NCBI GenBank assembly: GCA_014055465.1
Contig: WIAF01000003.1
Coordinates: 248,001 to 312,000 of the forward strand
Origin: Nitrospira sp. CR1.1
GTDB lineage: Bacteria; Nitrospirota; Nitrospiria; Nitrospirales; Nitrospiraceae
Reading direction: 5' to 3'
Length of the DNA stretch: 64,000 bases
How positions within the stretch are numbered: the stretch's first letter is position 1; each line of letters opens with the position of its first letter. Below the pieces are notes generated by a model. That model had not been told where the DNA came from. It was given only the letters and a program-made list of their open reading frames with translations, and ran no database searches. Positions 803 to 35,038 of the stretch are shown one piece after another. Both the position numbers and the translations under genes were made by a program.

Positions 803-1201
803 TTAGTTTTTCACCACCATGACCTCGGTTGCTTTGACAAGGGCCACGGCGGAGTCTCCGATCCGCAGACCCAGTTCTTCAAGCGCATCCCGGGTGATCA
901 CAGCGGTGATCAAATGTGGTCCGATATCGATATCGACTTGTGCCATAATGGCATCCCGTTTGATCGCCGTCACTCGCCCGACCAGCTTATTCCTGCCGCT
1001 CACGTCTTCCGTGCCGGCCTTTTTGGTTCCCAGCCACTCGTCGAGCAGAGCCCGCTTAAAGCGGTACCGGCCTCCGATTTTCGGCGCTCGAATTTTCCCC
1101 TCCCAGATGTACCGGTAAAACGTCGGGAGTGTGAGGCGCACATAACGGGCCGCTTCCCTGGCCGTAAACACGTCCCCTGTTCCCGCTCGCTTGTGAGGCA
1201 T
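803..1201 (-). CDS. Excisionase-type HTH plus TOBE domain protein, probable oxyanion-responsive regulator
   Basis: From ATG at 1201 this is a 132-residue protein; a GTG at 1240 would add 13 residues, but the 1201 start has the better-placed AAGGA. Residues about 9-55 form a small excisionase/MerR-like winged helix (VFTAREAARYVRLTLPTFYRY, then IGGRYRFKRALLDEWL). Residues about 68-130 are a TOBE/Mop domain (GRNKLVGRVTAIKRDAIMAQ to VKATEVMVVK). This is the logic of ModE, a DNA-binding module joined to a molybdate-binding module, but with a different HTH. It sits directly upstream of mop and modB copy 1. Regulation of these mod genes is inference. Confidence 0.82.
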   Translation of the reverse strand: MPHKRAGTGDVFTAREAARYVRLTLPTFYRYIWEGKIRAPKIGGRYRFKRALLDEWLGTKKAGTEDVSGRNKLVGRVTAIKRDAIMAQVDIDIGPHLITAVITRDALEELGLRIGDSAVALVKATEVMVVKN

Positions 1202-1452
1202 GCTGAGAGGTCCTTCATTCAACCTGATCACCATTCGCACATCATGATCGGCTGATCACATTCTCACCTCCTTTCACCCTGGCGCCACGATTCGAAGTCG
1301 GCACCTGCGATCTCTGCGTACCTTAGCAAGATCGACTGAGAATTGGAGGTGAGTCGCGTGAGAATTTATCGATAGTGAAAATCCATCCGTGCCATGGCCT
1401 CGCAGGAACGACGCAGGACGCTCATCTTTCGCTCAGGCAAACGTTCCCCGGG

Positions 1453-2547
1453 TCAGTGGTCCTGGCGCGAAACCAGGTGCACCGCGCCGGCTTTAATCAC
1501 CGCGATGACGTCCTGGCCGGGAACCAATTGCAAATCCTCTACCGATGACCGGGTCACGGTGGCGACCAGCGGAAAGCCGCAGTGCAATGTCACCCGCGCT
1601 AGCGCACCCAACGTGGCGACGGCCATCACCGTCCCTGCAAGCTGATTGCGCGCGCTGCTCGCGGCAATGGGACCGCGTTCCAATGCGATATCTTCCGCCC
1701 GGATACAGACGTACACATCCGGCCCGCAGGCTTCTCCCTCAATGGCGTTCACCACGACACCGTTGACGTCGACACGCAGCATCCCGGCAGCCGCCCACAC
1801 CACCCGCCCCTTGACCACCGTTTCCACGCCCACGACATGCGCCACGTCGGCATTCCGCGGACGACTGAAGACGTCCAAGGGCGTGCCGGTTTGCAAGACC
1901 TCCCCTCCGCTCACCACGGCCATGAGATCCCCCAGCGTCAGCGCTTCGGCCCAGTCATGCGTGACGATGATCGACGGCAGCGCGAGTTGCTTGAGCAGGC
2001 GCCGTAGTTCATCCCTGAGATAGATCCTGGTCGGCCCATCCAGCGCGGACAGCGGTTCATCCAGCAACAGCAGGAGAGGGCGTGGGGCCACGGCTCGCGC
2101 CAATGCGACCCGCTGTTGTTGGCCGCCTGATAGCTGCCGCGGCCTGGCATGTTCCAGCCCGCGCAGTTGAAACAGATCCAAGACTTCGGACACCCGCGCC
2201 TTGCGCTCGTGCGCTGACAGATGCCCGAGCCCATACTCGATGTTGCCTGCCACCGTGTAGGTGGGGAACAGTGCATAGTCCTGGGACATGTACCCGACAT
2301 GCCGATCCTGAGGAGACACCCGGATATCGGATCTCGTATCCAGCCAGGTGCGCGAGACAAATCGAATCCGCCCTTCTTCCGGCCATTCCAGCCCGGCCAC
2401 GGATCGAAGAATCGTGCTCTTGCCCGCGCCCGATGGCCCGAACAAAATGAGGACCGTCGAGGCCTCGACGGGATAGCGGAGTCGCGCGCGGATGGGCACG
2501 CGGCCCGCATACGATTTGACGATGTCGAGCGCTAATTCTGCGGCCAT
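1453..2547 (-). CDS. modC: Molybdate ABC transporter ATP-binding protein
   Basis: This 364-residue ATPase drives molybdate import from the cytoplasmic face. Walker [10 protein letters not shown] is at 37-45, a Q-loop glutamine is near 89, the signature LSGGQQQR is at 139-146, Walker B LLLLLDEP is at 158-165, and the H-loop histidine is at 197. The C-terminal part (about 240-360) carries TOBE-type regulatory domains, as in ModC ([10 protein letters not shown] to [13 protein letters not shown]). Its start overlaps the end of modB by 16 bp, indicating translational coupling. ModC is usually about 350 residues, so the length is normal. Confidence 0.93.
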
Positions 2548-3206
2548 GCTGCCCAGACGTTTCGATTGACGGCGTACACGAGAAGCAGCACGGCATACGA
2601 AACCACAAACAGAAACAAGGCGGTCTCGGCCGCCCCGGCATAGTTCAACGCCTGCACCTCATCATAGATGTCGATCGAGACTGTGCGCGTCGTCCCTTCC
2701 AGATTGCCGCCGATCATCAATACGACGCCGAATTCGCCCATCGTATGGGCGAAACTCAACACCGCGCCGGTCACCAGCCCGGCCGTGGACAGCGGTACAA
2801 TCAGCTTGAAAAAGGTCTGAAATTTTGACACCCCCAACGTCCAGGAGGCTTCAATGACCCGCCGGTCGACCTGATCGAACGCCGCCACAAACGGCTGCAC
2901 CGCAAACGGCAAACTATAGAGAATGGACCCCAGGAGCAGGCCCTCGAAGGTGAACGGCAGAGGGTGGCCGACCAGCTCGGCATAGAGTCGGCCAAACGGA
3001 CTGTGGGGACCGATCGCGATGAGGATATAAAATCCCAGGACGGTCGGAGGGAGCACCAGCGGCAGCGCGATTACAGACTCGACGAGGAATTTCCACCGCC
3101 AGCGGGAAAAACTGAGCCAGTAGGCGATGGGCAGCCCGATGGCTAACAGAACAAGCGCGGTGAGACCAGCCAGTTTCACAGTCACCCAAATCGCAATCCA
3201 GTTCAC
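2532..3206 (-). CDS. modB: Molybdate ABC transporter permease, copy 2 (complete)
   Basis: This is the 224-residue inner-membrane permease of the ModABC importer. Hydrophobic segments alternate through the chain (about five transmembrane helices), and the EAA coupling loop is at about 119-137 (VDRRVIEASWTLGVSKFQ). The start is GTG at 3206, matching the GTG of copy 1. It overlaps modC by 16 bp and follows mop by 75 bp. Because only this copy is directly coupled to a modC here, it is the better candidate for the working transporter; copy 1 may pair with the same ModC or another one beyond the window. Confidence 0.94.
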   Translation of the reverse strand: MNWIAIWVTVKLAGLTALVLLAIGLPIAYWLSFSRWRWKFLVESVIALPLVLPPTVLGFYILIAIGPHSPFGRLYAELVGHPLPFTFEGLLLGSILYSLPFAVQPFVAAFDQVDRRVIEASWTLGVSKFQTFFKLIVPLSTAGLVTGAVLSFAHTMGEFGVVLMIGGNLEGTTRTVSIDIYDEVQALNYAGAAETALFLFVVSYAVLLLVYAVNRNVWAAWPQN

Positions 3207-3534: not shown

Positions 3535-3930
3535 TCATCCTTTGGCCCGCCCCTGCGCAGACGTCTCAGGCGCATGTTCAGGGTCGGCACTCCCGGGCTT
3601 GCACTCAAACTGCATCCCCCAACGCCTGCCTCTCGATTCGTCCTCCGTGCCTTCAACAATACCCATCCCGGCGCTGGTGTATCCTTTGACCTCTCCCTCA
3701 CGGATCATCCGCCACCCTTTCCCGCACTTCGCGTGAATCGCATCCAGCGCGGGTTTTCGGTAAGCGGAGCCCATCGGACCGCCACGGTCTTCCTTATAAC
3801 TGTAGGTCATGACGCCCCCGTGGTCCGATTCCTGACTCATCATGACCGCCTCAGAGCAGCCCGCGACAGCGGTCAGAACCATCGCACACAGAGAGAGTGA
3901 TCGGCGATCAACTCGGCAGCGTGAATCCAT
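3535..3930 (-). CDS. Small lipoprotein of unknown function in the mod cluster
   Basis: A 131-residue protein with a short hydrophobic N-terminus ending in a lipobox (TAVAGC, lipid-bearing Cys near residue 25). The mature part has an SYKEDRGGP segment and a region with KCGKGWRMIREGEV that resembles small exported proteins seen in many proteobacteria, but I do not recognise a family. The start overlaps the end of modA by 23 bp, so it is probably translated from the same mRNA and lies in the periplasm-facing membrane. The last 25 residues are charged and probably disordered. Confidence 0.65.
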   Translation of the reverse strand: MDSRCRVDRRSLSLCAMVLTAVAGCSEAVMMSQESDHGGVMTYSYKEDRGGPMGSAYRKPALDAIHAKCGKGWRMIREGEVKGYTSAGMGIVEGTEDESRGRRWGMQFECKPGSADPEHAPETSAQGRAKG

Positions 3931-4708
3931 ATCGGATCATAATCTCCTGTCCCCGGTCGCCTTTCATAAACTCCAGAAACTGTCTGGCGACGTCCTGGTT
4001 CTTGGATTGCTTCATAATCACCGCGCCCTGTTCCAGGGGAGCATGGTGGCCGGCGGGAATCTCCCAGTAGTTCCCGGCGCTTTGCATGGCAGGGGCCATC
4101 GCCAGCGACAGAGCGATGATACCCACATCGCAGGCGCCGGATTCGATAAACTGGGCGGCCTGAGAAATGTTCTCTCCGAGCACCAGCCGATCCTTCACAT
4201 CGCCATACACCTGCTCATGCTCCATCGCGGCTACCGCCGCCCGGCCGTACGGGGCATGTTTCGGGTTGGCAATGGCAATCTTCTTGATCACCGGCTCGCG
4301 CAACACCGTGAGTCCCTTGGTCACGTCAAGAGGAGAGGTCTTGGGCGCCCATACCACCACCCGCCCGACCGCATACCGATAGAGAGACCCCGGTACTGTC
4401 AGACCCGCTTCCTCCAATTTCCTGGGATAGCCGATGTCCGCTGAAAAATACAGATCGAATGGCGCACCCTGCTGCAATTGAGCAAAGAAATTGCCCGACG
4501 AACCTAACGATAACTTCACCTTGTGCCCGCTGTGTTTTTCGTACTCCTCAATCACTTCCTTGATAGCGAAATTGAGATCGGAGGCGGCAGCAATGGTCAC
4601 CTCGCCGGCTTGAACCACAACCGGTACCGTCGCCATCCCGAGCATGAGCGCCATCGCGAGGATGCAGGTGACCGGCCATAGCGGTCGCATATATTTCAAG
4701 ATTGGCAC
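3908..4708 (-). CDS. modA: Molybdate ABC transporter substrate-binding protein
   Basis: The 266-residue periplasmic binding protein delivers molybdate to ModBC. GTG at 4708 is chosen because AAGGAGCT lies just upstream and a hydrophobic signal peptide ends near VVVQA (about residue 34); an ATG at 4744 would add 12 residues without a better site. The mature start EVTIAAASDLNFAIKEV and the GSSGNFFAQLQQGAPFDLYFSAD segment carry the serines that bind the oxyanion in the ModA family. It is followed by the small lipoprotein, mop, modB and modC on the same strand. Confidence 0.92.
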   Translation of the reverse strand: MPILKYMRPLWPVTCILAMALMLGMATVPVVVQAGEVTIAAASDLNFAIKEVIEEYEKHSGHKVKLSLGSSGNFFAQLQQGAPFDLYFSADIGYPRKLEEAGLTVPGSLYRYAVGRVVVWAPKTSPLDVTKGLTVLREPVIKKIAIANPKHAPYGRAAVAAMEHEQVYGDVKDRLVLGENISQAAQFIESGACDVGIIALSLAMAPAMQSAGNYWEIPAGHHAPLEQGAVIMKQSKNQDVARQFLEFMKGDRGQEIMIRYGFTLPS

Positions 4709-4770
4709 GTGTGAGCTCCTTTCATTCCAGGTCATGTGGCACATCGCGAGGCGACGCGATACGCGGGCCC

Positions 4771-5127
4771 TTATCGTGCGCTTGCGAGGGATTGGTGGTC
4801 AAGATACAACAAACCGCACAACACCGGAGAACAATCCCTGCCCCAGGGCTTGATCCAGGCTTCGTACCGGCCGATATGAATATCAATGATCATGCCGGCC
4901 TCCCAGGAAGCACAGTGGTCATCCTCCTGCTCCACCAGCACTGAGACACGGGCAGTCCCAACGAGCAGTGAGAGCAGGCGACCGTCCAAGTCCCTGTCGA
5001 CATCCACGATTGTGGCTCTCAGCCACACCCGGACATCCTGGCCTGCAAAAGACGCCTGCTTTCCGGCCCCCTCACCCGGCGCTACGTTCAGCGGCGCCCC
5101 ACCCTTACGCCCGTCGTGATTCATCAT
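4771..5127 (-). CDS. Small TOBE-like protein
   Basis: A 118-residue protein without signal peptide. The centre (about 30-95) has alternating beta strands of the TOBE/OB kind (VRVWLRATIVDVDRDLDGR, then ARVSVLVE, GMIIDIHIGRYEAWI). It resembles one domain of the proteins at 13749 and 25196 in length and pattern, although pairwise identity is low. It lies between modA and the porin gene, so a molybdate-related role is likely, but the family call is mine and not certain. The C-terminal 20 residues look unstructured. Confidence 0.5.
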   Translation of the reverse strand: MMNHDGRKGGAPLNVAPGEGAGKQASFAGQDVRVWLRATIVDVDRDLDGRLLSLLVGTARVSVLVEQEDDHCASWEAGMIIDIHIGRYEAWIKPWGRDCSPVLCGLLYLDHQSLASAR

Positions 5128-5196: not shown

Positions 5197-6930
5197 TTAG
5201 AAGAAGATCTGGTATTGCACGCGAATCATATTTTCGATCAAGGTGCCCCCCCGCGCATCGAGCGGGACCGATCCCGAAAGGGGAGGGAGCGGATTGCTCC
5301 TTCCGATCGCATAGCCGCCGGTTCCCATTTGCGTGTTGCTGTACGTCAACATGATTTGATGATCGTAGGTGCCGTTCAGGAACCAGTTGACCGACGCGTC
5401 AGTCTGATACACCAGGTCGCCGCCGGCATTGGTATCCGGATCCCAATACGAGAATCGGCCCGCAAGCTCCAGGTACCGAGGGATAAGATAATAGCCGGAT
5501 TGCACATACCAGCCGGTGGAATTGCCGAGCAACGCCGGGGCCGTGGTCGTGCACGCGACGTTCATGCAAGGCACCCCCTTGTCGTGCCGGTTGACGTTCT
5601 TATAGAAAAATTCTCCCTGGAGGGAAAACCCTCGATACTTGAACACGCCGTCCACCGCCCAGGTGAGATAGTCCACGACGCCCCAGCCGAGTTGTCTGCC
5701 GTTGCCGAATGCCGCGATCTGCCGTCTGAAATTGAGATTGGCCAGGTCCGTGCCGATGTACGAACTGTTCGAGCTGGTGTTCACGGACGGGTTGTACGCA
5801 ATTCCTCCGCCGACCGCCATTTGGGGCGTTTCGGAATAGGCCAAATCGCCTTCTCCATACCCGGGCCGCCCCATGATGTTCCAATTCAAGCGGGCGCTGT
5901 ACATGAGTTGATTGATATCGTTCCGCAAATTCGCATTGATATTGCGCTGAGGCGTAGGGCAGGAGGCCGACGATGGAAAGGGCGCTTGCCCCGTGGTTCC
6001 TCCCGCGCAATCCGCGGTGGGCTGTTCGCTGAAGAACCCGCCCAGGCGATTGAAGCTTGGTCCGGCCCCGTTGAACACGCCGAAATAGTAATTGACGGGG
6101 AAGAGTTCCTCATCGTTCATGAACGTGATGCCGATGTCACGGCGATCCAACCCGCTGGCTGTGAAGGCATCCATCACCAGCGATCGCTCGGCGAACTGCA
6201 TGGAGGCCGTCGAGTTAATCTGAGAGCGATTGAAAAAGACTTTATACTGACCCACCTGAACGTTGAAGAGCGGGAAATGCGTGCTCAAGAATTGCATATC
6301 CAACAGACGCAGCGACCCCGGCGTTTGAGAGTTCTCCGCCGTTTCTCCCGCTAGTTGAATGTAATATTTGAAATCCGGGCTAAACAGGTGGCCCATGAAG
6401 TACACCCGGGCTCGCCTCACGTTAAAGGAAGATGCCGTCTCATCTGATCGGTTCGCCCGGTAATCGCCGAAGACACCAAGCAACTCGGGAAAGTTCTTCG
6501 CGTCGCCGGGATTTCGCCAGGCATCATTCCGAAACCGTTGCGTGTACCGCAATTGACTGCGGAATCGAATTTTCAGGGCAAACGCATTGTCGTTCATGGA
6601 AAGGTTGAACCCACGATCGTACCAGGCCTTGAAGCTCGGTTGGAGCAGGTAGGTTCGCTCCTGCGATTCCTTGAGGACCTCCGCGTATTCTTCGGCCGTA
6701 ATGATGCCCTGCTTTGCCGCGCGATCCAGCAACAGTTTCGTGGCCGGATCCATACTCTCGACGAATTCGTACTTGCCGTTCTTCATCACCAGAGATCCTG
6801 TCTCCGTGGCGAATGCGGGTACGGCAAATGCGGCCTGCCATGACGCACACAGGCACGCAACCATCAGCAACACAGATCGAACGCGGGGCATCAGGGTAAC
6901 CGCATGACCCCCTCGAAGTTGTCTCATCAT
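5197..6930 (-). CDS. Phosphate-selective porin O/P-like outer-membrane porin, copy 1
   Basis: From the ATG at 6930 (GAGGG five bases upstream; a GTG at 6942 is also possible) this is a protein of 577 residues with a signal peptide ending at about AFAVPAFA. An N-terminal region (MKNGKYEFVESMDPATK, GIITAEEYAEVL) resembling a short coiled-coil or SHOCT-like segment precedes a beta barrel rich in aromatic strand ends, closing with VQYQIFF, the C-terminal aromatic signature of outer-membrane barrels. It belongs to the OprO/OprP-like family of anion-favouring porins. It is paralogous to the porin at 29657. Its neighbours are a lipoprotein, a ModA-like protein and modA, so an oxyanion channel is likely. 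Confidence 0.82.
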   Translation of the reverse strand: MMRQLRGGHAVTLMPRVRSVLLMVACLCASWQAAFAVPAFATETGSLVMKNGKYEFVESMDPATKLLLDRAAKQGIITAEEYAEVLKESQERTYLLQPSFKAWYDRGFNLSMNDNAFALKIRFRSQLRYTQRFRNDAWRNPGDAKNFPELLGVFGDYRANRSDETASSFNVRRARVYFMGHLFSPDFKYYIQLAGETAENSQTPGSLRLLDMQFLSTHFPLFNVQVGQYKVFFNRSQINSTASMQFAERSLVMDAFTASGLDRRDIGITFMNDEELFPVNYYFGVFNGAGPSFNRLGGFFSEQPTADCAGGTTGQAPFPSSASCPTPQRNINANLRNDINQLMYSARLNWNIMGRPGYGEGDLAYSETPQMAVGGGIAYNPSVNTSSNSSYIGTDLANLNFRRQIAAFGNGRQLGWGVVDYLTWAVDGVFKYRGFSLQGEFFYKNVNRHDKGVPCMNVACTTTAPALLGNSTGWYVQSGYYLIPRYLELAGRFSYWDPDTNAGGDLVYQTDASVNWFLNGTYDHQIMLTYSNTQMGTGGYAIGRSNPLPPLSGSVPLDARGGTLIENMIRVQYQIFF

Positions 6931-6980
6931 AAGATCCCTCACTCCTCTGCAACACGATGACTAAATATGGACGTGATTTG

Positions 6981-7682
6981 TTAGGGAGCCACCGGGGCCG
7001 GGATAGATTTCAGCCCGGTTCCGCCGGCCTCGCCAGAATTCAGAAATTGGCGATACTGGACGGCTCTCGCACCTTTTTGATCCTCTAGCCAAAATCGTCC
7101 CGGTTCGAAATAGAGGATGTAGTTACGAGGAGGCGGCGGAGTGGCGGGATAATTGATGTCGTACAAATCATCTTTGCGGATCGGGACCTGGCGATGAAAC
7201 TGTTCAAGGGTCAGGTACAGGTATGGCTCCTGAACCGCCATCCATCCCGCGATGACGTCCCGGGATTCGGCCGGATTGAAACCCGGTCCACGCACTTCGA
7301 AATGGGCCCGCTCATTTGCCCCAAGCTGTTTCATCGTCGCCGACAAATGGGGCGACACCGCTTGCAACTCGTCTTCACGGAAGACCGGCTTCGGCGGCGC
7401 CTCTTCGGCAAACCAACGGAGCGGCAATCGCTGTTGCTCACGCACTGAAAATCCTCGCAAAATGCTGGCAATATCCTCGCTACTGAGCTGCACGGGATGC
7501 GTATGGGCCTGCGCGTCAACCTCCTGCTGCACCGTCACGATCACTCGCTGGTCCTCGTGGACGGTTTTGGTGGTGTAGGGCAGCCTCGCGCATCCTGTCG
7601 CCATGAGGGCCGCCGCCCCCATAAGAACAAGGGCGAGCGACGCCGCGAGGCCTCGGCCTGTCTTTCTTCTTCGTTCCCTCAT
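6981..7682 (-). CDS. Outer-membrane-type lipoprotein of the porin/ModA module, copy 1
   Basis: ATG at 7682 is preceded by AAGGAGGAG and gives 233 residues with a signal peptide and lipobox (ATGC, Cys near residue 31). The mature chain contains HPVQLSSEDIASILRGFSV, then EEAPPKPVFREDELQAVSPHL and YLTLEQFHRQVP. The protein at 32158 shares this plan (HPASLTATEVGTLLRGVRV, FRDGEIANLAPAL, LHLALREAHDR), so they are paralogs. No known family comes to mind. Both copies lie beside a porin and a ModA-like gene, which argues for one functional unit in the envelope. Confidence 0.75.
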   Translation of the reverse strand: MRERRRKTGRGLAASLALVLMGAAALMATGCARLPYTTKTVHEDQRVIVTVQQEVDAQAHTHPVQLSSEDIASILRGFSVREQQRLPLRWFAEEAPPKPVFREDELQAVSPHLSATMKQLGANERAHFEVRGPGFNPAESRDVIAGWMAVQEPYLYLTLEQFHRQVPIRKDDLYDINYPATPPPPRNYILYFEPGRFWLEDQKGARAVQYRQFLNSGEAGGTGLKSIPAPVAP

Positions 7683-7765
7683 TACTCCTCCTTGCAAAAC
7701 GCCACAAAAATCATGTGTAGATTTAATAAGTTAATGTATACTTGATACCATCACAAAAAAATCCG

Positions 7766-8605
7766 CTATTTCTTTCCAGCGGGAAGCGCATAGCCGGCTT
7801 GACGCACGATGGCTTGGCCATCGCGCCCCTGAATGTACGCGAGAAACTCCTCGCAGAGCTGACGGTTCGGGCAGTATCGCTCCATGGTCATGGAGTGCAC
7901 CGTCGGCTGATATCCTTTCTCAACCACTCCGGCAACCCGCACACGCTGTTGCTGCCTGACCGCCTCATGTCCGTAAATGATTCCGACATCCGCCTGGCCG
8001 CTCAAGACATGGTCAATGACCCCGTGGGAATCCGTGGCCACATCCAGACGCCCCTTGAGCGACTCGTGGAGCCGAAGAGCCCGAAGCACCTCGTCCGTCT
8101 GGACTCCGAGCCGCGTTCGCGACCGGTCAGCAACCGCCAGCCGTGCGCCCCCCCGGCTGATCGTGTCGAGCGATGCCGGCGCTTCCACCAGAGATTCCGG
8201 CACCACGAGCACCAGTTGATCGGCGGCATAGGCCCGCTTCGCGTCCGGCAGGACGTAATACTTTCCTTCCAAGCGCGTGATCAGCTCGTCCCCGCCAGGC
8301 GCGACAAGACTGATAGGACCGGTTCCGATAAAGTATCGGCCCACCATACTGTTTTCCATTCCGGCAATGGTCTGCCGGAGACTCAATCCTGTATCGAAAA
8401 ACAACCGCACATTGACTCCGGCATGGCTGCGCTCAAAACCATCCCCCAACCTTTCCAGCACTTCTCTCAAACTCGGGGAAGCGGCGATGACGAACGTCTC
8501 ATCGGCAGACGCGGGAACCGCCCGCACACCGCTTTCACACGTGAGGAACAGAACCAGGGCGAGCAACGTCCTGACAACATTCCGAGCACACGCATAGCGC
8601 CTCAT
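7766..8605 (-). CDS. ModA-like periplasmic substrate-binding protein, orphan copy 1
   Basis: ATG at about 8605 has GAGG six bases upstream and yields 279 residues with a signal peptide ending near VPASA. The mature chain begins ETFVIAASPSLREVLERLGDGFE and runs through QADVGIIYGHEAV to AYIQGRDGQAIVRQAGYALP, the class II binding-protein fold of ModA/WtpA. It is divergent from modA at 3908; the usual GSSG loop is replaced by FFDTGLSLRQTI. No permease or ATPase gene of its own is adjacent, so it may feed ModBC or act in sensing. The ligand (molybdate, tungstate or another oxyanion) is not known. Confidence 0.78.
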   Translation of the reverse strand: MRRYACARNVVRTLLALVLFLTCESGVRAVPASADETFVIAASPSLREVLERLGDGFERSHAGVNVRLFFDTGLSLRQTIAGMENSMVGRYFIGTGPISLVAPGGDELITRLEGKYYVLPDAKRAYAADQLVLVVPESLVEAPASLDTISRGGARLAVADRSRTRLGVQTDEVLRALRLHESLKGRLDVATDSHGVIDHVLSGQADVGIIYGHEAVRQQQRVRVAGVVEKGYQPTVHSMTMERYCPNRQLCEEFLAYIQGRDGQAIVRQAGYALPAGKK

Positions 8606-8670
8606 TAATATCCTCGCCTTGAAAGATGATGCCTGTTCACATGCATGCACGACCGGTATTGCACACTCAC

Positions 8671-9864
8671 CTACCCGGCCCGCAGACTACGCACCTTACC
8701 GGTCTCCGTCATATCGTACCCACCCAACGCTTCGACTTCGGTTCTGAACTGACGGCTGGCAATCGCATCCAGCAGATGCGAGAGGCCCGGATGAGTGGAG
8801 AGGTATCGCTTCGGCAGGACCAGATCGTAACGGGCCTGTTGCAGCGGCACGAAGTCGAGCCCGAAGATCTGCGCAGCGGACCGCACGCCGATCCCCGCAT
8901 CGCCTAGCCCGTCCGCAATGTGCCGGGCCACCTCAAAATGCGAGCTCACCGTCATGCCATACCCCTTGACGGACACGCTGTCGATGCCCAATGCCTGAAG
9001 ACGTTGGTCCAGCAACATCCTGGCGGCGGCGCCTTCTTCGCGATTGACCAACGACACATTCGTCCTGGCCAGGTCCTCCACACCGCGGATCCGTTTGGGG
9101 TTCCCCGCTCGCACGATGAGCCCCTCTTCCCACGCGGCAAACGTCACGACAATATAATCGTCGCCCTGCAGGTGCCGGCGAAGGTAGGGCAGATTCGATT
9201 CTCCCGTTTTGGCATCAAGAATGTGCAATCCCGCCATGTGCACTTCTTTGCGCTTGAGCGCCTCCAGCGCCGCGGCACTGCCCATGGACCACCCCACGAC
9301 CGTGGACGTGTCTTTATGGCGATGGAGATATTCGCTGGCCAGATTGATGGCCGGATCACAACCGGCCACCGCAATTTCCCGCTCGACGATTTGACGTTCA
9401 CGCAGCAGGCGGACGAGCACCCGGCGATCGGACTTCGCCGCGCGCAACCCCGATCCCGCCTTGCCGATGATCAGACCATCAGCCGGCACGGTGTAGTTGA
9501 GGATTTCACCCAGAGCGGCAACCGGACGAACGACGAAACGATCTTCGATCTTGGCCACCTTCACTCTGGTGCGCGGTTGAACGGCCGATACGGCCAATCC
9601 GGGCCAGACCCAATCACCTTCGATCAACTCGCCGGTCGTCTTGAGACTGAAGATATCTTCCACGTGACAGCCCAAGACACTGGCCAACCGTAAGGCCACC
9701 GCCGTGGTCGGGAGATACTGATCCGCCTCGATGGCGCAGACGGCCTGACGGGTAATCAAGGCGCCGTCGGCGAGCTGGCCTTGAGAAAGGCCTTTGGCCA
9801 TGCGCAGGGCGCGAAGGGAATTGACGACATTGGATGCTGGCTCTGCTTTGCTTTTCTCACTCAT
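8671..9864 (-). CDS. XRE-type regulator with periplasmic-binding-like ligand domain
   Basis: The 397-residue protein has no signal peptide. Residues about 14-72 are an XRE helix-turn-helix (LRALRMAKGLSQGQLADGAL, TRQAVCAIEADQYLP). From about 90 to 380 it holds a periplasmic-binding-protein-like domain (VVGWSMGSAAALEALKRKEV, LVNREEGAAARMLLDQRL, GYGMTVSSHFEVARHIADGL), the PBP_like type found in cytoplasmic molybdate-linked regulators. It heads the leftward series porin-lipoprotein-SBP, and one-component sensing of molybdate or tungstate is a reasonable inference. A GAGG lies four bases before the ATG. Confidence 0.88.
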   Translation of the reverse strand: MSEKSKAEPASNVVNSLRALRMAKGLSQGQLADGALITRQAVCAIEADQYLPTTAVALRLASVLGCHVEDIFSLKTTGELIEGDWVWPGLAVSAVQPRTRVKVAKIEDRFVVRPVAALGEILNYTVPADGLIIGKAGSGLRAAKSDRRVLVRLLRERQIVEREIAVAGCDPAINLASEYLHRHKDTSTVVGWSMGSAAALEALKRKEVHMAGLHILDAKTGESNLPYLRRHLQGDDYIVVTFAAWEEGLIVRAGNPKRIRGVEDLARTNVSLVNREEGAAARMLLDQRLQALGIDSVSVKGYGMTVSSHFEVARHIADGLGDAGIGVRSAAQIFGLDFVPLQQARYDLVLPKRYLSTHPGLSHLLDAIASRQFRTEVEALGGYDMTETGKVRSLRAG

Positions 9865-9875
9865 GGCGCCTCGGG

Positions 9876-9904
9876 TGATATCATGGTAGATTAACTAGTG
9901 TCAA
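9876..9904 (-). promoter_or_regulatory. Promoter-like element and inverted repeat before the XRE-PBP gene
   Basis: On the minus strand TTGACA (9899-9904) is followed after 17 bases by ATATCA (9876-9881) preceded by TG. TATCAT and ATGATA half-sites flank this block in inverted order (about 9880-9916), fitting an autoregulatory operator. If the -10 is right the mRNA would be almost leaderless and lack the GAGG site, so the exact promoter assignment is doubtful. Confidence 0.35.
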
Positions 9905-10395
9905 CTATTATGATAGTCTTTCTGCATAAAATTGTTGCTACCCGGTGATTGTTCGACTTGGAGCGCCACCGCATGCCCACCCGCTCCGCTCCCTGACGAG
10001 CGATGCGCTCCCCGCGAATGCACTCGTTCGCTCATGTATCCTGTTCCGCGCTGTGCTGTCAACGACGGCACCCGCGGCGCAGACTTCCACAGCAAACGCC
10101 TGCCCCCCATCGCGACGAACCGACGCGCAGAACCGGGTCGCCAAGAAAGCAGGATGTCGCATGTCAGCTTGGACACCTGATCGATGGGCCACAAGGAACA
10201 GTCAGGACGAATCGGTGCGCCGGCCATGAATTCACGTGAGTCCGCCTTACGGCCGCACCGTTGCCTCCCGCCTCTCCCGGATCCGGGTGAACGGATGAGG
10301 CGCCGCGGTGAATCACTCCACCCGCCCCGATCCATCCACCACATCCTCTTCTATTCCCACCATGCCCGACGTGCGACATGGCATCGGCACGTCAC
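9905..10395. other. Intergenic region, no gene supported
   Basis: About 490 bases between the XRE-PBP start and the end of the small exported protein gene. Open frames here have no ribosome-binding sites and unlikely composition. I see no RNA gene. It probably holds the upstream control region for the leftward cluster. Confidence 0.5.
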
Positions 10396-10877: not shown

Positions 10878-13163
10878 TCAGAACTTTAATCCCACCGAAC
10901 CGGCCACCGTAAACGGAGCGCCGGGGAAATAGGCGGCGCCGCCGCCCAATCGATCTTCAAAGGCATTGATGACGCCGACATATTTTTTATCGAACAGATT
11001 CAAGAACGCCAGACTCACAAAACCGTCTTTCACGCCAGGCAGCGCGCCGAACAGCTTCGGATTGCTATAGGTCAAGAAGAGATCGACGACGGTATAGGGC
11101 GCGATCTTCTCACTGTTGTCGACATTCCCGTATCGCGCGCTGATGTACCGCACGACCGGAGAAATTTCCAACCCGTACAGCTTGTAGCTCAGGCCGCCCT
11201 TCAGCATGAACTTCGGAAAGTCCGGCGTGTCGTGCCCCTTCGTCGCCACCACTGCTCCTGACGCAGCCGTGGTATCACTGGCCATCTCCGACTTGCCGTA
11301 GAGAAAGGACCCATAGATCGAAAGATTCTCGACCGGCGTCGCGCCCATTTCAATTTCGCCGCCATAGGCCCGCGCATCGGCCGCACTGGTCCTGACATTG
11401 GTGTTCAGGGCAGGGTCAAACACGCCCACCAGCAGATTTTCGTAATAGGTATAGAACAGCACCGGGGCGAGATAGACCTTCTCTCCCGTATACCGCACGC
11501 CGAGATCGACATTGTGCGACGTGGCTAATTTGACGCGATCGACTAACGTCTGCACGCTGAGGCCGGCGGCATTGAAGGCCGCCCGGTTGTTGGCAAAGAC
11601 CTGCTGAAACTCCGGAAACCCATGAGGCTGCGCGTAGTTTTTTCCATAGGTCGCATAGGTGGTCACCTGCTTATTGATCGCGTAACTCAACCCGAAGTTG
11701 GGTAACCAGGCTTCATAGGTCTGCCCCTTATAGCTGGTCGCCGCATCCTTCGTCGGATTCAGCCCCTGTACATCCTCAAACGATCCGTTGGGAAGACCGG
11801 CATTATTGAATCCGGTGACCGGCGGCTCATACATATTGAAATACCGGAATCCTCCCTCCGCGTGAAAACCACCGATGTCCTTCGTGATTTTGACATAGGG
11901 GCTGCTGATCACCCCGTTGCCCTCTTTTTTGGTCAGCAACCATTGATTGAATTGGAGCTGGCCGTTCTGAAGACGTGAATATTTCTCGGCGATGGGAAGG
12001 CTGAACTGCTCATACCAATACCCGATCTTCAGCCCCGTATTCAGGATGCTGGTGTCATACTCGACGACCGTGCCGTAGCGATCGAATCGATTGGTGCGTT
12101 CACGCACGGCGGGAGCCCCAAGGAAGGTCGTCCCTGCGAGCCGAGGCGCCCATTCGCGGAAATAGTAGGGCTTGATGGTGATTCGATGATTGTCCGTCGG
12201 TGTGATCGTGATCAGCGAGAACGCGTGATAATTGGTGATTTTCTCGCGGTTGAAATCAAAATAATTGACATCCTGCGCCGCGTTATTGAGGATCGACCGG
12301 TTGTAGTCCAGGTCGCGCGCGGCGTCGAGGTTCCGGACCTGCGCAAAGGTCAGCGGGCGAAAGGCATTCTGCGTGGCTTCATTGTAGTCGAAGAAAAGAT
12401 CCGCCTTGACGTACCGTGAAAATTCCTGGCTGGCTCCGAAGGAGACATGGTGACGATCTGACGGCGCGCCCCCCGCTCCCCGCCATTTGTCGGCGGTGGT
12501 ATAGGAATACGACGCATAGAGTTTGGTGCCGGTCGATAACGTGCCGGAATCAATCCGTGCGTAACTCCGCCGAAAATCGAAGGCGCCGAATCCCTGCCGC
12601 ACATCGATCCCGAATGTGTCCGCCGGCCGCCGTACGCTCAGATCGATATTCCCCGCAATATTCATCGCGCCGAGGCCTTTGTCTGGCGCAATGGCGCCTC
12701 GATATAACGTCATGTCTGAAATGTTTTCCAAATCCAACATATCCGGCCGCGGCCCCGGCGACTCCTGCGCCCAGACCGGCACCCCTTCAATCGTCATCGC
12801 CGTACCCTTGCCGGGCTGGCCCCGGACCCGGAGATTGAATGGTGTTCGCGTATTCAGACCGTAGGGATCGGCCGTCTCGACGGTGACCGACGGCAACATA
12901 CGAAGGGTTTGATACACAGACACCTGCGCGGGACCGCCGAGCTTCCGGATCCCTTCCTTGGTCACAGTCGTTTCGGTTCGAGGCTGAGTCGTTTTCTCTT
13001 CGATCAAACCGCGATGTTTCACGCCCGCCACTTCGACCTCGTCCAACGCCACCTCGGTCTGTGACTCCGTGGCCACCGGCGCGTCTGCCTGTGCATATCC
13101 CGCCGCCGCGATCATGAAGCATCCTCCCAGCACCAGGCCCCATGCGGTGATGAATCGTCCCAT
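10878..13163 (-). CDS. TonB-dependent outer-membrane receptor
   Basis: A 761-residue receptor with a signal peptide (about 1-26), a TonB-box-like stretch DEVEVAG near residues 41-47, a plug domain (about 55-180; TLRMLPSVTVETADPYGLNT, NLRVRGQPGKGTAMTIEGVP) and a long beta barrel ending AGSVGLKF with terminal Phe. It would import a chelate or complex across the outer membrane using TonB energy. Its neighbours and the tonB/ABC operon at 19-27 kb point to a metal or oxyanion complex as substrate; siderophore import is the classic alternative. The plug and barrel look intact. Confidence 0.9.
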   Translation of the reverse strand: MGRFITAWGLVLGGCFMIAAAGYAQADAPVATESQTEVALDEVEVAGVKHRGLIEEKTTQPRTETTVTKEGIRKLGGPAQVSVYQTLRMLPSVTVETADPYGLNTRTPFNLRVRGQPGKGTAMTIEGVPVWAQESPGPRPDMLDLENISDMTLYRGAIAPDKGLGAMNIAGNIDLSVRRPADTFGIDVRQGFGAFDFRRSYARIDSGTLSTGTKLYASYSYTTADKWRGAGGAPSDRHHVSFGASQEFSRYVKADLFFDYNEATQNAFRPLTFAQVRNLDAARDLDYNRSILNNAAQDVNYFDFNREKITNYHAFSLITITPTDNHRITIKPYYFREWAPRLAGTTFLGAPAVRERTNRFDRYGTVVEYDTSILNTGLKIGYWYEQFSLPIAEKYSRLQNGQLQFNQWLLTKKEGNGVISSPYVKITKDIGGFHAEGGFRYFNMYEPPVTGFNNAGLPNGSFEDVQGLNPTKDAATSYKGQTYEAWLPNFGLSYAINKQVTTYATYGKNYAQPHGFPEFQQVFANNRAAFNAAGLSVQTLVDRVKLATSHNVDLGVRYTGEKVYLAPVLFYTYYENLLVGVFDPALNTNVRTSAADARAYGGEIEMGATPVENLSIYGSFLYGKSEMASDTTAASGAVVATKGHDTPDFPKFMLKGGLSYKLYGLEISPVVRYISARYGNVDNSEKIAPYTVVDLFLTYSNPKLFGALPGVKDGFVSLAFLNLFDKKYVGVINAFEDRLGGGAAYFPGAPFTVAGSVGLKF

Positions 13164-13748: not shown

Positions 13749-14447
13749 ATGACACTCACAGCGGTTCTCCCACAGAGCGGCCAGACCATGGGCAGCACGG
13801 TCAGGCCCCCCGTGATCGTCCTGAACAAATTGGTTGGGCTGATCGTGGCCCGCCGCCATCCCCATCGTCGGCACTATCAGGTGCGTACGGCCGACGGCAT
13901 TCATGTGACGGTGCACGATCCCGCCTTCCCCGGACGCACGCGCACGCTGTCGATTGGACAGCACGTGTCGCTTCGCATTCCTCCGCATGCCGTCGTGATC
14001 AGCCCTGCGAGACCCATCGAAGCCACGGAAGACAACGTGTGGCCCGCGCGGGTCGTCCTACCGGCCGGTCAGGAACGAGGCTCCCTGCTGATTGTGAAAA
14101 TCCTCGGGCGACCGTGGACCCTGACCAGCACCCAGGAAGAAGGGAAGCCCGCCCGCCCGCTCCGCGCGTGGGACCGTGTCACCGTCCGGATTCGCCCCGA
14201 GTCCTGTGTCATCGATTGCCGCTACCCCGGCGACTCTCGTCTCCACCCGCGCCTCCTGACCGAATCATCGTGCATGCCCGCCGATTCAGACCACACGCCG
14301 CCGGATACACGCCCACCATATCCGGCTCACAAGGGTAGGGAACCGCTCTCCTGTGTTCCCTGCCCCCCTGTTCCCGAAGACAGGTGCCACCGGTCATCCC
14401 GCCACGTCGAACATCAGTATTTCCGCAGAGAAAGGAGCCGATCATGA
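13749..14447 (+). CDS. Double TOBE-like domain protein
   Basis: A 232-residue cytoplasmic protein with two beta-rich repeats: about 25-90 (YQVRTADGIHVTVHD, IGQHVSLRIPPHAVVI) and about 98-160 (GSLLIVKILGRPWTLTSTQ, WDRVTVRIRPESCVI). The second repeat aligns with the C-terminal repeat of the protein at 25196 (VTVKIVGQPLTFTSTN, EDQVRVSIEAAALRV). The layout resembles the di-TOBE tail of ModC without an ATPase. The last 65 residues are Pro-rich and of low complexity. GGAGG lies before the ATG. A stand-alone oxyanion-binding role is inference. Confidence 0.6.
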   Translation: MTLTAVLPQSGQTMGSTVRPPVIVLNKLVGLIVARRHPHRRHYQVRTADGIHVTVHDPAFPGRTRTLSIGQHVSLRIPPHAVVISPARPIEATEDNVWPARVVLPAGQERGSLLIVKILGRPWTLTSTQEEGKPARPLRAWDRVTVRIRPESCVIDCRYPGDSRLHPRLLTESSCMPADSDHTPPDTRPPYPAHKGREPLSCVPCPPVPEDRCHRSSRHVEHQYFRRERSRS

Positions 14448-21547: not shown

Positions 21548-22359
21548 CAGAGCACTGAAGCTTCCGGTCGTTTCCCCGCTCCCGCAGGCACACAACACCT
21601 GATCCCGCCCTCCTGGGTGAGAATGTTGACCTCCACGCCGTACAGCAGATGCAGACGATCCCTCGTCATCGCTTCGTCGGGACTCCCCTGCGCCAAGACT
21701 TTTCCCTGATGCATCAGCACCACGGCATCGGACGACAGAAACGCATGATCCGGGAAGTGCGTGGATTTCAACACCGTGAATCCCTCCTCGGCCAAGGCGC
21801 GGACTTCCCGCAACAAGCGCAGCTGATTGCCGTAGTCCAGTCCGCTCACTGGTTCATCCATCACCAGAATGGCGGCCCCTTGCGCCACGGCCCTGGCGAT
21901 CAATGCCAGTTGCCGCTCCCCGCCGCTGATCTCCGTATAGATTCGGTCGGCCAGGTGGGCGATCCCGACCCGTTCCATGGCGCCGTGAGCCAATCGACGC
22001 TCGTGTGCCGAATAGGTCTGTTGAAACAGGTGCCGCTGCGCGAAGCGGCCCATCAACACCACATCCCGCACGCGATAGGGAAACGACAGGGTATGAGCCT
22101 GCGGCACATAGGCCATTCTGCGCGCCCGTTCCCGGATGCTCAGCCGACTGACTTCGCAGCCATCGAGCCATACGCGCCCTCCTTGCGGGCGCAGCAGCCC
22201 CAACATGATTTTGATGAGCGTGCTCTTTCCACATCCGTTGGGACCCAGCAGAGAGAGAACCCGCCCCCGTGGAGCAGACAACGACACTCCATCCAGCACG
22301 AGGCGCTGCCCGTAGGAAAAGGTCACACCATGCGCCTCCAAGGCGGTCATGTCAGCCAT
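21547..22359 (-). CDS. FecE/MolC-type ABC transporter ATP-binding protein
   Basis: A 270-residue ATPase: Walker A GPNGCGKST at 39-47, signature ISGGERQ at 144-150, Walker B ILVMDEP at 164-170, H-loop His201. The type II importer family covers iron-siderophore, haem, cobalamin and molybdate/tungstate (MolC of Haemophilus). Local context rich in Mod genes favours molybdate or tungstate, but substrate cannot be read from the ATPase. Overlaps the permease gene by 13 bp and the TPR gene by one base, so the three are translationally coupled. Confidence 0.9.
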   Translation of the reverse strand: MADMTALEAHGVTFSYGQRLVLDGVSLSAPRGRVLSLLGPNGCGKSTLIKIMLGLLRPQGGRVWLDGCEVSRLSIRERARRMAYVPQAHTLSFPYRVRDVVLMGRFAQRHLFQQTYSAHERRLAHGAMERVGIAHLADRIYTEISGGERQLALIARAVAQGAAILVMDEPVSGLDYGNQLRLLREVRALAEEGFTVLKSTHFPDHAFLSSDAVVLMHQGKVLAQGSPDEAMTRDRLHLLYGVEVNILTQEGGIRCCVPAGAGKRPEASVL

Positions 22360-24491: not shown

Positions 24492-24640
24492 TCGAACAAA
24501 CCATCAAAAAAGCGAGTCTGTTCCAGAGGCCCCCACACCAATGGAAAGGCAGGGATCCTGTGAGGGCTCCCTGCCAGTCGGGAACGGTGATGGAGTCAGG
24601 CATCTCCGTTCGCGGGGTCGCATTGCGCGACAGGGGCTCA

Positions 24641-25192: not shown

Positions 25193-25195
25193 CGC

Positions 25196-25684: not shown

Positions 25685-25724
25685 GGGAGTACCTTCAGCG
25701 CGAGGGCGATCGACATTCACTACG

Positions 25725-25753
25725 ACGATACATAATACATTTATAAATATCAA
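25725..25753 (-). promoter_or_regulatory. Promoter with ATTTATAAAT palindrome before the TOBE-like gene
   Basis: On the minus strand TTGATA (25748-25753), 17 bases, then TATCGT (25725-25730) preceded by TG. The spacer holds the palindrome ATTTATAAAT (25739-25748). The segment is nearly identical to the one upstream of the Crp/Fnr gene at 29438-29466. A start near 25718 leaves a 34-base leader, which fits the 25684 start codon. Confidence 0.6.
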
Positions 25754-25818
25754 GTATAGTGATATCCATCAATGGCTCTACCAAGCGCGGCCGAACATTC
25801 GGACCCGGCGCGAGACGT

Positions 25819-26262: not shown

Positions 26263-26297
26263 CTTCCCCTCCCTCTCTTGATGGTGGCTCTCCCCGC

Positions 26298-29554: not shown

Positions 29555-29656
29555 ATACCTCATCGGATTACAGATATTTTATTTCGCACGCAAGAATGCG
29601 TCCTTACGACTTCCCACTTCACCTGTAGCGCTTAACCTCAGATGAGGAGACCTTCT

Positions 29657-31297
29657 ATGCAGCGACGAGCAATTTGGAGTGCCGGTCTCCTGGCCGGCTT
29701 ATTGGTAGGCCTCTCCTCGGTACCGGCCCCGGCAGTCGAGGAAGGCCAGTTTATCAAGAAGGACGGGAAATGGGAGTATTACTCGGGCGAGGACCCCGGC
29801 CTCAAATATCTCCTCCTCAAAGGCATCATCACGCAGGACGAATATGACCGAGGCCTGAAGGTCATTGAAAAGCGTGAGCAGGTGTCAAAGCCGAATTACA
29901 CCATCGACGTCAACAACGGCCTGAACTTCCGCGTGGGAGACAAATTCTTTCTCAAGCTGCGGCTTCTCACCCAGGTTCGGTACACCCACAACGCCTACAA
30001 TAGTGCATGGGGGACCGTCGGCGACTCACGGAATCCGGAAATTCTTGGAGGACAGGTCGAGTATCGCGCAATCCGGAAGCAAAGTGACTCCAATCAATTC
30101 AGCGTGCCCCGTGTCCGGCTTCAATTCCTGGGTTATGCCTTCGATCCTGATTTTCGCTACAACATTTCCTTGGCGTTTGATCAGACAACCTGGAATCAGG
30201 AGGGTGGCAGCGGAAGGGCCGGCCTCCTCGATGCCTACGTGTCCTCATGGCACATCCCCTGGCTTACGATTCAGGCCGGCCAACAGAGGGTCTGGTTCAA
30301 CCGCGCGACTATCAGTTCGATGGCCACCTCAACCTTCGCGGACAATCTGATCGTCCAAAACGCCTTCGCGGCCAACCAGCAAAACAGCCGCGACGTGGGT
30401 GTCAGCATTTCCAGCGATGAGGATCAGTACAGATTCAATTACGCCTTCGGCATTTGGGGCGGAGTGGGAGCCAATCTCGCACGGGAGGGCACCTCCGTCA
30501 GTCAGAATGTCCTGCCCCAAACCGGCACACCGGGCGCACCGGGAGCCGCGACCACGCGCACCTACAATTACGATACGCGTTTCATGACCGGGGAAATGAT
30601 GTACACAGCCCGGCTGTTGTACAAAATCGCGGGCAATCCGGGCTATGGCCAGGGCGATATTTTGAACTCCCGGACCCTGCAATCGGCCATCGCGTTCGGC
30701 TACGCCTATAATCCGGCCCAAAACTATCTCAGTTCGATCCGCTCGGACATTGTCGATCGAGCCTACCGGCAGGCTGTCACCAAAGCCTACAACGGCCGGC
30801 TCCTGGCCGGCGGCATCTGGGATTTTCAGACGTATGAAGCCGACTTCATCGCCAAATATCAGGGATGGTCGTTTCAGGCGGAAGGGTATTATCGTCACCA
30901 GCGGCTCCGCAGCGCCAATAGCGGAACCAGCGCGTTTGACTTGAATACGATCCCGGCGGCGCAATTCCTAGGCCCTCCAGTCAACCTGGGACAGGCCTAC
31001 GGATGGTATGCGCAAGTGGGGAAATACATTATCCCGCGCAAACTCGAACTGGCGGTCCGGTATGGATTCATGGATCCTTCCACCCAACAGGTGAATGATC
31101 TGCTCAAAGAATTCGGCGCCGCGATCAACTACAGTTTCGACGGCACGTACAATAACCGGCTCGTGATTGATTACTCCAATATCACGATGGGCAGCGGCGG
31201 ACGAGCGCCGGATCGGTTCCCCTTTGAGAGTGAGCCAGGATTCGGCCGCGATCTCGTCGAGAACCGGATCAATGTGCAGTACCAATTCTATTTCTAA
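29657..31297 (+). CDS. Phosphate-selective porin O/P-like outer-membrane porin, copy 2
   Basis: ATG at 29657 has GAGGAG seven bases upstream and gives 546 residues; the ATG at 29642 lacks a site. Signal peptide ends near VPAPAVA. An N-terminal segment KKDGKWEYYSGEDPGLK and KGIITQDEYDRGLKVIEK parallels copy 1 (KNGKYEFVESMDPATK, GIITAEEYAEVLKES). The barrel ends NVQYQFYF with terminal Phe. This OprO/P-like porin probably favours anions. It begins a rightward operon with a ModA-like protein and a lipoprotein. Confidence 0.83.
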   Translation: MQRRAIWSAGLLAGLLVGLSSVPAPAVEEGQFIKKDGKWEYYSGEDPGLKYLLLKGIITQDEYDRGLKVIEKREQVSKPNYTIDVNNGLNFRVGDKFFLKLRLLTQVRYTHNAYNSAWGTVGDSRNPEILGGQVEYRAIRKQSDSNQFSVPRVRLQFLGYAFDPDFRYNISLAFDQTTWNQEGGSGRAGLLDAYVSSWHIPWLTIQAGQQRVWFNRATISSMATSTFADNLIVQNAFAANQQNSRDVGVSISSDEDQYRFNYAFGIWGGVGANLAREGTSVSQNVLPQTGTPGAPGAATTRTYNYDTRFMTGEMMYTARLLYKIAGNPGYGQGDILNSRTLQSAIAFGYAYNPAQNYLSSIRSDIVDRAYRQAVTKAYNGRLLAGGIWDFQTYEADFIAKYQGWSFQAEGYYRHQRLRSANSGTSAFDLNTIPAAQFLGPPVNLGQAYGWYAQVGKYIIPRKLELAVRYGFMDPSTQQVNDLLKEFGAAINYSFDGTYNNRLVIDYSNITMGSGGRAPDRFPFESEPGFGRDLVENRINVQYQFYF

Positions 31298-31336
31298 ACC
31301 GGGCACGCAGGTCGTCGCACCAACGTGGAGGACAGC

Positions 31337-32161
31337 ATGAGAGCAGCATTTCGTATCAGAGGAATCATCGCCGCGGTCAGCCTACTGCTCGGCCTAGCCT
31401 GGAACATCCAGCCGGCCCAGGCGCAAGCGGACATCATTACCATCGCCGCCGCCAACAGCCTGAAAGACGCTCTTCGCAAGGTGCTTCCGCTGTTCGAGGC
31501 GGACCACCGGAACATCAACGTGCGGGTAATTTACGGTCCATCCCAAACACTCCGCGGCCAGATCGAACAGGGCGCGCCGGTTGACATCTTTCTGCCGTCG
31601 CTTTTTGAAGAAATCGACCAGCTAGAGGCCAAGGGGCTGATCATTCAAGGAACCAAACGCGCCTTTGCGGCCACCTCGCTGGTCCTGATCACGGGGACGA
31701 CCCTTCCCGCCCCCATCAGCTCGATTCAAGATCTGCAAACCACCCCGATTCGCCGCATTGCGGTCGGCGACCCCAAGACCTCCTCGGTCGGGAAAGTCGC
31801 CGCGCAGTTTTTGAAATACAGCAACCTGGAACCCAAGCTGAAATCGCAGTACATCCTCGGCGAACACTCGCGGGCCGTCCTCGATCTGGTGGCCAAGGGC
31901 GAGGCCGAAATCGGCGTGGTCTATCGCACCGATGCGATATCCAATTCAGGCGTCCGCATCCTTGATACCGCACCAGTCGGCTCCCACACCCCGGTACGGT
32001 ACGGCGTCGCCGCCGCATGGACGGCACAGAACATTTCTGCAGCCGGTGACTTCATTGAGTTTCTACTGAGCCCCACGATCCAGACCCTGTTGCAGGAATT
32101 CGGATTCGACCGCGTGTCTCCCGAAGTCGGATTCGCACAACGAGAAGAGGTGAAACCATGA
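31337..32161 (+). CDS. ModA-like periplasmic substrate-binding protein, orphan copy 2
   Basis: ATG at 31337 follows GGAGGACAGC. The 274-residue protein has a signal peptide (to AQA) and the mature ModA opening IITIAAANSLKDALRKVLPL. Family segments YGPSQTLRGQIEQGAPVDIF, GDPKTSSVGKVA and GEAEIGVVYRTDAI are kept. It ends in ATGA overlap with the lipoprotein gene. No permease or ATPase gene belongs to this unit; it might share ModBC or the second modB copy. Ligand unproved. Confidence 0.85.
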   Translation: MRAAFRIRGIIAAVSLLLGLAWNIQPAQAQADIITIAAANSLKDALRKVLPLFEADHRNINVRVIYGPSQTLRGQIEQGAPVDIFLPSLFEEIDQLEAKGLIIQGTKRAFAATSLVLITGTTLPAPISSIQDLQTTPIRRIAVGDPKTSSVGKVAAQFLKYSNLEPKLKSQYILGEHSRAVLDLVAKGEAEIGVVYRTDAISNSGVRILDTAPVGSHTPVRYGVAAAWTAQNISAAGDFIEFLLSPTIQTLLQEFGFDRVSPEVGFAQREEVKP

Positions 32162-32892
32162 TTACCATCAGCCGTCTACAGCAGCGAATGTTGTCCCGTC
32201 GCGGCAGTCTGATCCTCGCCTTCATCGGTGTGGTCGTCGCGGCCGGTTGCGCAGCACAATCCCCGACGCCGCCCAAGATGATCTATCAGTCGGGATTGAA
32301 TCAGGTCCGGATCGAGAAAGATCCCGCATCAACGACGAACGCCCACCCGGCCTCGCTGACCGCAACGGAAGTCGGCACGTTGTTACGGGGTGTACGAGTC
32401 TGGGAACGACGCAACGCTCTGCATCGTCTCTTCGTCGGGCAGGCCGGCAAAACCAGGGCCTTCCGTGACGGGGAAATTGCGAACCTGGCGCCGGCGCTGG
32501 CGAAAGCCTTGTCACAGGCATCTCCCTCTGACCGTGTGTACTACCATCTCAGCCATGCGACTGAACATGGCGAAGAAGAGACCAGCACGGGCTGGTTGTC
32601 GGTGCAGGATACGACCCTGCATCTGGCCTTGCGCGAAGCTCACGATCGGCATGGACCCGGGCCTGATATCAGCAAGTATGACCGGCAGATGCCGAATGTC
32701 CCCGAACGGTCTCCGGCATTCGACGCCACGTTTGAGCCGGAAGAGTTCCTGGTGAAGGTCGTATCAGGCGGGGGACTGTTCGCGCCGGATCAACAGGAAG
32801 AACTCCTCATTCGGTACAAGGACGCGCTCTTGGCCATGCCGGCGCAACCAGGACTGGAGCGAGACAACAAACCAGTGCCGGAACAGCACTGA
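32158..32892 (+). CDS. Outer-membrane-type lipoprotein of the porin/ModA module, copy 2
   Basis: A 244-residue lipoprotein whose ATG overlaps the stop of the ModA-like gene. Signal peptide with lipobox VAAGC (Cys about 30). The mature chain carries HPASLTATEVGTLLRGVRV, FRDGEIANLAPAL and LSVQDTTLHLALREAH, matching the lipoprotein at 6981 in order and spacing. No named family. It probably acts with the porin and binding protein. Confidence 0.77.
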   Translation: MITISRLQQRMLSRRGSLILAFIGVVVAAGCAAQSPTPPKMIYQSGLNQVRIEKDPASTTNAHPASLTATEVGTLLRGVRVWERRNALHRLFVGQAGKTRAFRDGEIANLAPALAKALSQASPSDRVYYHLSHATEHGEEETSTGWLSVQDTTLHLALREAHDRHGPGPDISKYDRQMPNVPERSPAFDATFEPEEFLVKVVSGGGLFAPDQQEELLIRYKDALLAMPAQPGLERDNKPVPEQH

Positions 32893-35034: not shown

Positions 35035-35038
35035 CATC

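Follow-up and report, generated by a model that had tools for sequence, protein, structure and literature searches.

Outer-membrane porin and lipoprotein genes within a molybdate transport operon of Nitrospira-like bacteria

Genes of the molybdate run

The window (the whole stretch of DNA analyzed, 64 kb in length) carries a run of minus-strand genes that is read from position 9864 down to 803. It begins with a regulator gene (8671..9864) encoding HTH_3 and PBP_like (PF12727) domains according to Pfam and NCBIfam; this gene heads the operon in relatives, and its product, the HTH-PBP regulator, is likely a molybdate sensor. The next three genes encode a ModA-like paralogue designated ModAC1 (7766..8650), a lipoprotein designated LipoC1 (6981..7697), which has the lipobox ATGC-A and belongs to no Pfam family, and an outer-membrane porin, porin 1 (5197..6942), with the C-terminal end VQYQIFF and a Porin_O_P (PF07396) score of 49.9 bits against the Pfam gathering score of 20.9. 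The initial annotation had singled out these three genes as one leftward unit, ending ModAC1 at an in-frame ATG at 8605. The unit is real, and it constitutes genes 2–4 of the molybdate run (hereafter copy 1).

Further downstream are a small protein in the interval between porin 1 and ModA (4771..5127), which has no Pfam family and is retained in the closest relatives, a canonical ModA of the Azotobacter/Pseudomonas type (3908..4744), a small conserved protein overlapping the end of ModA (3535..3930; no Pfam family), a ModB permease (2532..3206), a ModC-type ABC ATPase with a TOBE domain (1453..2547), and an HTH_17 and TOBE/Mop protein (803..1240; Pfam and NCBIfam). From the regulator to the second small protein, the gaps between genes range from −23 to 69 bases (68 bases between LipoC1 and ModAC1, 38 bases between porin 1 and LipoC1), followed by 328 bases to ModB. 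An Rfam search of the 64-kb window gave no matches. Predicted terminator sites, one of them at the end of ModAC1, were rarer than in shuffled sequence and were not used as evidence.

The canonical ModA scored above the NCBIfam cut-off (TIGR01256, 205 bits vs. 62.5), as did ModB (TIGR02141, 227 bits vs. 182.6), and the best PDB match of this ModA was 7t4z (E 3e-49). The TOBE domain of the ATPase was detected by Pfam. Its best NCBIfam models were WtpC, PhnT2, and ModC, none of which reached its cut-off: the score was 238 bits for ModC (TIGR02142, cut-off 285) and 274 for WtpC, also below the cut-off of that model. According to the initial annotation, the trio had neither a permease nor an ATPase of its own. 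For copy 1 this does not hold, since ModB and the TOBE ATPase lie downstream on the same strand; the idea of an orphan copy 1 that lacks a transporter is thus ruled out, and the common inner-membrane transporter proposed for it is unnecessary, as copy 1 sits in an operon with its own ModBC.

ModAC1 is a member of PF13531 (E 2e-29), and its TIGR01256 score of 64.9 bits is marginally above the cut-off of 62.5. The AlphaFold model (mean pLDDT 81.7) has a ModA fold and is closest to ModA structures, with 4kd5 as the best PDB match (E 1e-20, Foldseek). A conserved insert of approximately 12 residues, modeled with low confidence (pLDDT <50), is located beside the second ligand loop, within the surrounding consensus GQYFIGxGPIHLVAPGGDE. 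We aligned the ModA-like proteins with a sequence that we take to be E. coli ModA, with S12, S39, and Y170 as its presumed ligand positions. In ModAC1, S12 corresponds to S/T/A and Y170 to Y/F or W, and S39 is lost, with S/T one column earlier in most sequences; the alignment is uncertain beside the insert. ModAC1 retains this ligand set only in part, and it may not bind molybdate.

Copy 2 and conservation in related genomes

The initial annotation had also reported a paralogous trio in a different order, which was confirmed on the plus strand at 29642–32892 (copy 2). It consists of porin 2 (29642..31297), the ModA-like paralogue ModAC2 (31325..32161; Pfam/NCBIfam), and LipoC2 (32158..32892, lipobox AAGC-A); the order is thus porin, ModA-like protein, lipoprotein vs. 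ModA-like protein, lipoprotein, porin in copy 1. The porins share 36% identity over nearly the full length (E 8e-110), and porin 2 had no Pfam match at E 0.001. The identity is 25% between the lipoproteins (E 4e-19) and 25% between ModAC1 and ModAC2 (E 1e-20), each of which is also similar to the canonical ModA in pairwise comparison. S12, S39, and Y170 of E. coli ModA are all retained in ModAC2 of the window and in its aligned homologues. Copy 2, a paralogous set transcribed divergently, probably serves another condition or oxyanion.

In the window, no ABC genes directly adjoin copy 2; ABC genes adjoin copy 2 in several relatives. A binding protein (identified by Pfam) and a FecCD-type permease and ATPase (read from the sequence) lie 2.3–8 kb from copy 2 on the opposite strand. 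Downstream of copy 2, a histidine kinase (33439–35034) and a sigma-54 response regulator (34904–36397) are encoded on the plus strand, and both are conserved there in many relatives.

The two copies in the window are separated by approximately 20 kb of further metal-uptake genes. These include a TonB-dependent receptor (10878–13163), a Peripla_BP_2 binding protein with neighboring FecCD-type permease, ATPase, and TonB-like genes (21547–27338), and TOBE-like proteins (13749–14447 and 25196–25753). The TonB receptor and FecCD-type genes may form a second route of metal uptake, of the metallophore type. In the window, as in one relative (G009), they separate the two copies, and in another relative (G026) they are found upstream of copy 1.

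An alignment scan of named genomes for ModAC1, based on two short peptide patterns that could miss distant relatives outside the phylum, yielded 45 loci titled Nitrospira, Nitrospirae, Nitrospirota, or Nitrospiraceae, including N. defluvii and N. moscoviensis; one was titled Nitrosospira, presumably a label error. The succession ModAC1, LipoC1, porin 1 was found in 44 of the 45 loci, the exception being a contig end. Canonical ModA came next in 39, and the other six end before it. Across the 45 loci, the order regulator–ModAC1–lipoprotein–porin–ModA–ModB–ModC deviated only at contig ends. Across the 20-kb stretches taken from relatives, the two copies usually stood side by side in divergent orientation, and the kinase and the sigma-54 regulator lay beyond copy 2. 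Another porin/ModA-like/lipoprotein set, the third in its genome, was observed away from the mod operon in G033 (contig 5, 466340–469336).

Among 35 whole genomes, the ModAC1, porin 1, and lipoprotein families were all present in 16 and all absent from the other 19 (presence thresholds: E <1e-100 for ModAC1, E <1e-230 for porin 1, and E <1e-74 for lipoproteins of the LipoC1/C2 type). The initial idea that the three families belong together was not refuted by this co-occurrence, which comprised 16 of 16 genomes with a single gene order. The presence of the trio does not track nitrite oxidoreductase, the best-known molybdoenzyme, which therefore does not account for the pattern: likely homologues, detected as matches to the DMSO-reductase II family (TIGR03479), were found both in genomes that have the trio and in genomes that lack it.

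A motif, AAGTATACA, is present on the minus strand between ModAC1 and LipoC1 (7735–7743), with a related half-site at 7706–7724 (site span 7706..7743). Of 44 loci, 9 carry the rare 8-mer AAGTATAC, on either strand, in the 150 bases that precede LipoC1 (shuffled mean 0.19), and 6 of 39 carry it upstream of the HTH-PBP regulator (shuffled mean 0.27); the largest count in shuffled sequences was 3. It was absent from most other upstream regions of the operon. In L089, L098, L104, L114, L117, and L119, the AAGTATAC / GTATACTT motif precedes the gene for the regulator. This motif may be an operator common to LipoC1 and the regulator, which we regard as a lead only, the loci being related.

The lipoprotein family and its porins

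Neither LipoC1 nor LipoC2 matched a Pfam family. The model of LipoC1 (mean pLDDT 81) had no PDB fold match at E 0.001 (best E 0.07); neither sequence nor fold gave a match to SusD or any other known lipoprotein. The libraries searched contain no description of this family, which is the new part of the locus. The lipobox cysteine is invariant in 32 of 32 aligned lipoproteins, and a lipobox-like motif was found in 91 of 104 family open reading frames. In a sampling of 148 genomes across the phylum, the family was detected in 37 of 37 members of the order Nitrospirales, in 1 of 3 other genomes of the class, and in none of the 108 from outside the class; it is nearly restricted to the order. With a single-sequence query, three order members had no match, two of these genomes being incomplete. 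Profile search in 15 genomes revealed 2 to 11 paralogues per genome.

Linkage of the lipoprotein to porins was assessed with porin positions obtained by six-frame genome search, independently of the lipoprotein, and then compared with lipoprotein positions. A family lipoprotein lay within 3 kb of 36 of 41 porins (0.6 expected), that is, of 21 of 24 molybdate-type (0.38 expected) and 15 of 17 phosphate-type porins (0.25 expected); the loci of related genomes are orthologous and thus not independent, the counts include a few short fragments of porins, and a few porins occur in both searches, so the product of probabilities is not literal. The pairing recurs across several lipoprotein lineages, also beside PstS/PsiE/PhoB-like genes and beside UrtA/UrtB. 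A porin together with a matching binding protein accompanied lipoprotein clusters 1 and 2 (molybdate), 6 and some of 0, 8, and 11 (phosphate), and 3 (urea), and no porin was nearby for clusters 4, 10, and most of cluster 0; the barrel count per cluster is descriptive, as its seeds came from the same neighborhoods, and the linkage test based on porin positions is the fairer one. This recurrent proximity suggests that the lipoprotein could be a dedicated partner or helper of nutrient pores. As several paralogue groups lack a nearby porin, the family may have a role wider than that of a porin partner.

In the genome of the window itself, one lipoprotein copy adjoins a barrel-like protein and urtAB. 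A phosphate locus of the same genome (L049, contig 7) contains a Porin_O_P porin, an Slp lipoprotein, a family lipoprotein, two PstS-like proteins, a PhoB-like regulator, and PsiE. In L048, a family lipoprotein is directly adjoined by a barrel-like protein (8649–10139, minus strand) that carries a CXXCH haem motif near its N terminus. Pairs of a barrel-like protein and a family lipoprotein also occur in L127, L135, L141, L147, and L154, CXXCH being seen in L048; no binding-protein neighbor was detected for the haem-motif barrel. In L050 (6066–9741, plus strand), a Rieske and molybdopterin oxidoreductase gene is followed by a family lipoprotein and then an SPFH protein, and a similar large gene precedes the family lipoprotein in L129, L143, and L156.

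Members of the family in urea (UrtA) loci rule out the lipoprotein as oxyanion-specific. Because the family pairs with porins in UrtA loci and also occurs beside the haem-motif barrel, the common denominator is the porin and not the oxyanion; the selection of oxyanions through the lipoprotein, as initially proposed, is weakened on the same grounds. The invariant residues of the porins gave no sign of a basic lining, Arg/Lys and Asp/Glu being approximately equal in number.

Possible function and comparison with known systems

Nitrospira accounts for a major share of the world's nitrite oxidation and depends on molybdenum, its nitrite oxidoreductase being a molybdoenzyme. Molybdate transport has been described mainly at the inner membrane. 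Titles and abstracts on Nitrospira molybdate, porins, and urea, and on molybdate with porins, mentioned nothing of a porin/lipoprotein/ModA-like module.

We have high confidence that copy 1 forms the outer-membrane section of an operon for molybdate; confidence is lower for the molecular roles of its parts. The established roles of the families place the porin in the outer membrane, ModA in the periplasm, and ModBC in the inner membrane. Our preferred reading, with a probability of roughly 0.55, is that copy 1 supplies ModABC with its outer-membrane and capture end, with the lipoprotein as the partner of the porin. The operon would import molybdate, possibly tungstate, in Nitrospira-like bacteria. 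The oxyanion would cross the outer membrane via the porin. The lipoprotein would have its anchor in the inner leaflet of this membrane and would be dedicated to the porin for stability, gating, or docking. ModAC1 would capture the ions at the porin and pass them to canonical ModA and ModBC, directly or by exchange, and the HTH-PBP regulator would sense cytoplasmic molybdate and control the operon. The genes, their order, their family membership, the co-occurrence, and the linkage of porin and lipoprotein across molybdate, phosphate, and urea loci are observed, and physical contact, substrate selectivity, and ion hand-over are what we infer. Weighing against this reading are the incomplete ligand set of ModAC1 with its low-confidence insert, the lipoprotein clusters that lack a nearby porin, the similar numbers of invariant basic and acidic residues in the porins, and the mismatch between trio presence and nitrite oxidoreductase.

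The pairing of the lipoprotein with barrels in loci for substrates as different as oxyanions and urea, and also next to a CXXCH barrel with no binding-protein neighbor detected, would also be expected of a general assembly or stabilizing factor for this barrel class, standing outside substrate passage, with ModAC1 as an extra binding protein for ModBC. The lipoproteins of porins 1 and 2 are paralogous and not identical, which agrees with such a role; however, an assembly factor has no need of one paralogue per porin, and each porin type has its own lipoprotein lineage. We consider this explanation doubtful, although it is the strongest of the alternatives. A bolder reading, in which we place somewhat less trust still, is a modular device of Nitrospirales for uptake at the outer membrane: a nutrient-specific porin and a new-fold lipoprotein docking the matching binding protein would be re-used for molybdate, phosphate, and urea, with hand-over from pore to protein without free diffusion.

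A sensing role, in which ModAC1 and/or ModAC2 would act with the lipoprotein to signal external molybdate to the kinase and the sigma-54 regulator on the side of copy 2, transport being secondary, is improbable. The adjacency of this pair to copy 2 in many relatives and the conserved insert and altered ligand loops of ModAC1 are consistent with sensing, but the kinase stands beside copy 2 rather than copy 1, and some loci have no such kinase near copy 1. Copy 1 itself lies within modABC, and a cytoplasmic HTH-PBP regulator would suffice. Just as unlikely is the originally proposed oxyanion-selective chain from porin through lipoprotein to ModA without its own transporter: the three families do co-occur, but ModBC belongs to the same run as copy 1, and the lipoprotein family is not confined to oxyanion loci.

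The conservation of a porin within the mod operon makes the outer-membrane step of molybdate uptake testable. Since lipoprotein and porin are paired repeatedly, in loci for molybdate, phosphate, and urea, the order Nitrospirales may follow a general rule in feeding its periplasm.

SusC/SusD-type systems are pairs of a barrel and a lipoprotein, and the genes described here resemble them in that barrel and lipoprotein lie side by side and recur with different substrates; however, the barrels here are porins and not TonB-dependent, and the lipoprotein has no structural match in the PDB. Porin 1 and the porin of the phosphate locus exceed the Pfam cut-off of the OprP/OprO phosphate-selective porins (PF07396), whereas the porins here are linked to molybdate genes and porin 2 has no Pfam match. 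The ModABC operon is matched in that one strand encodes canonical ModA, ModB, and an ATPase of the TOBE type, together with molybdate-linked regulators. Unlike that operon, the run in the window also encodes an outer-membrane porin of its own, a second ModA that has diverged, and a lipoprotein from a family not described before, and in most relatives a second porin/ModA/lipoprotein set adjoins the run in divergent orientation.
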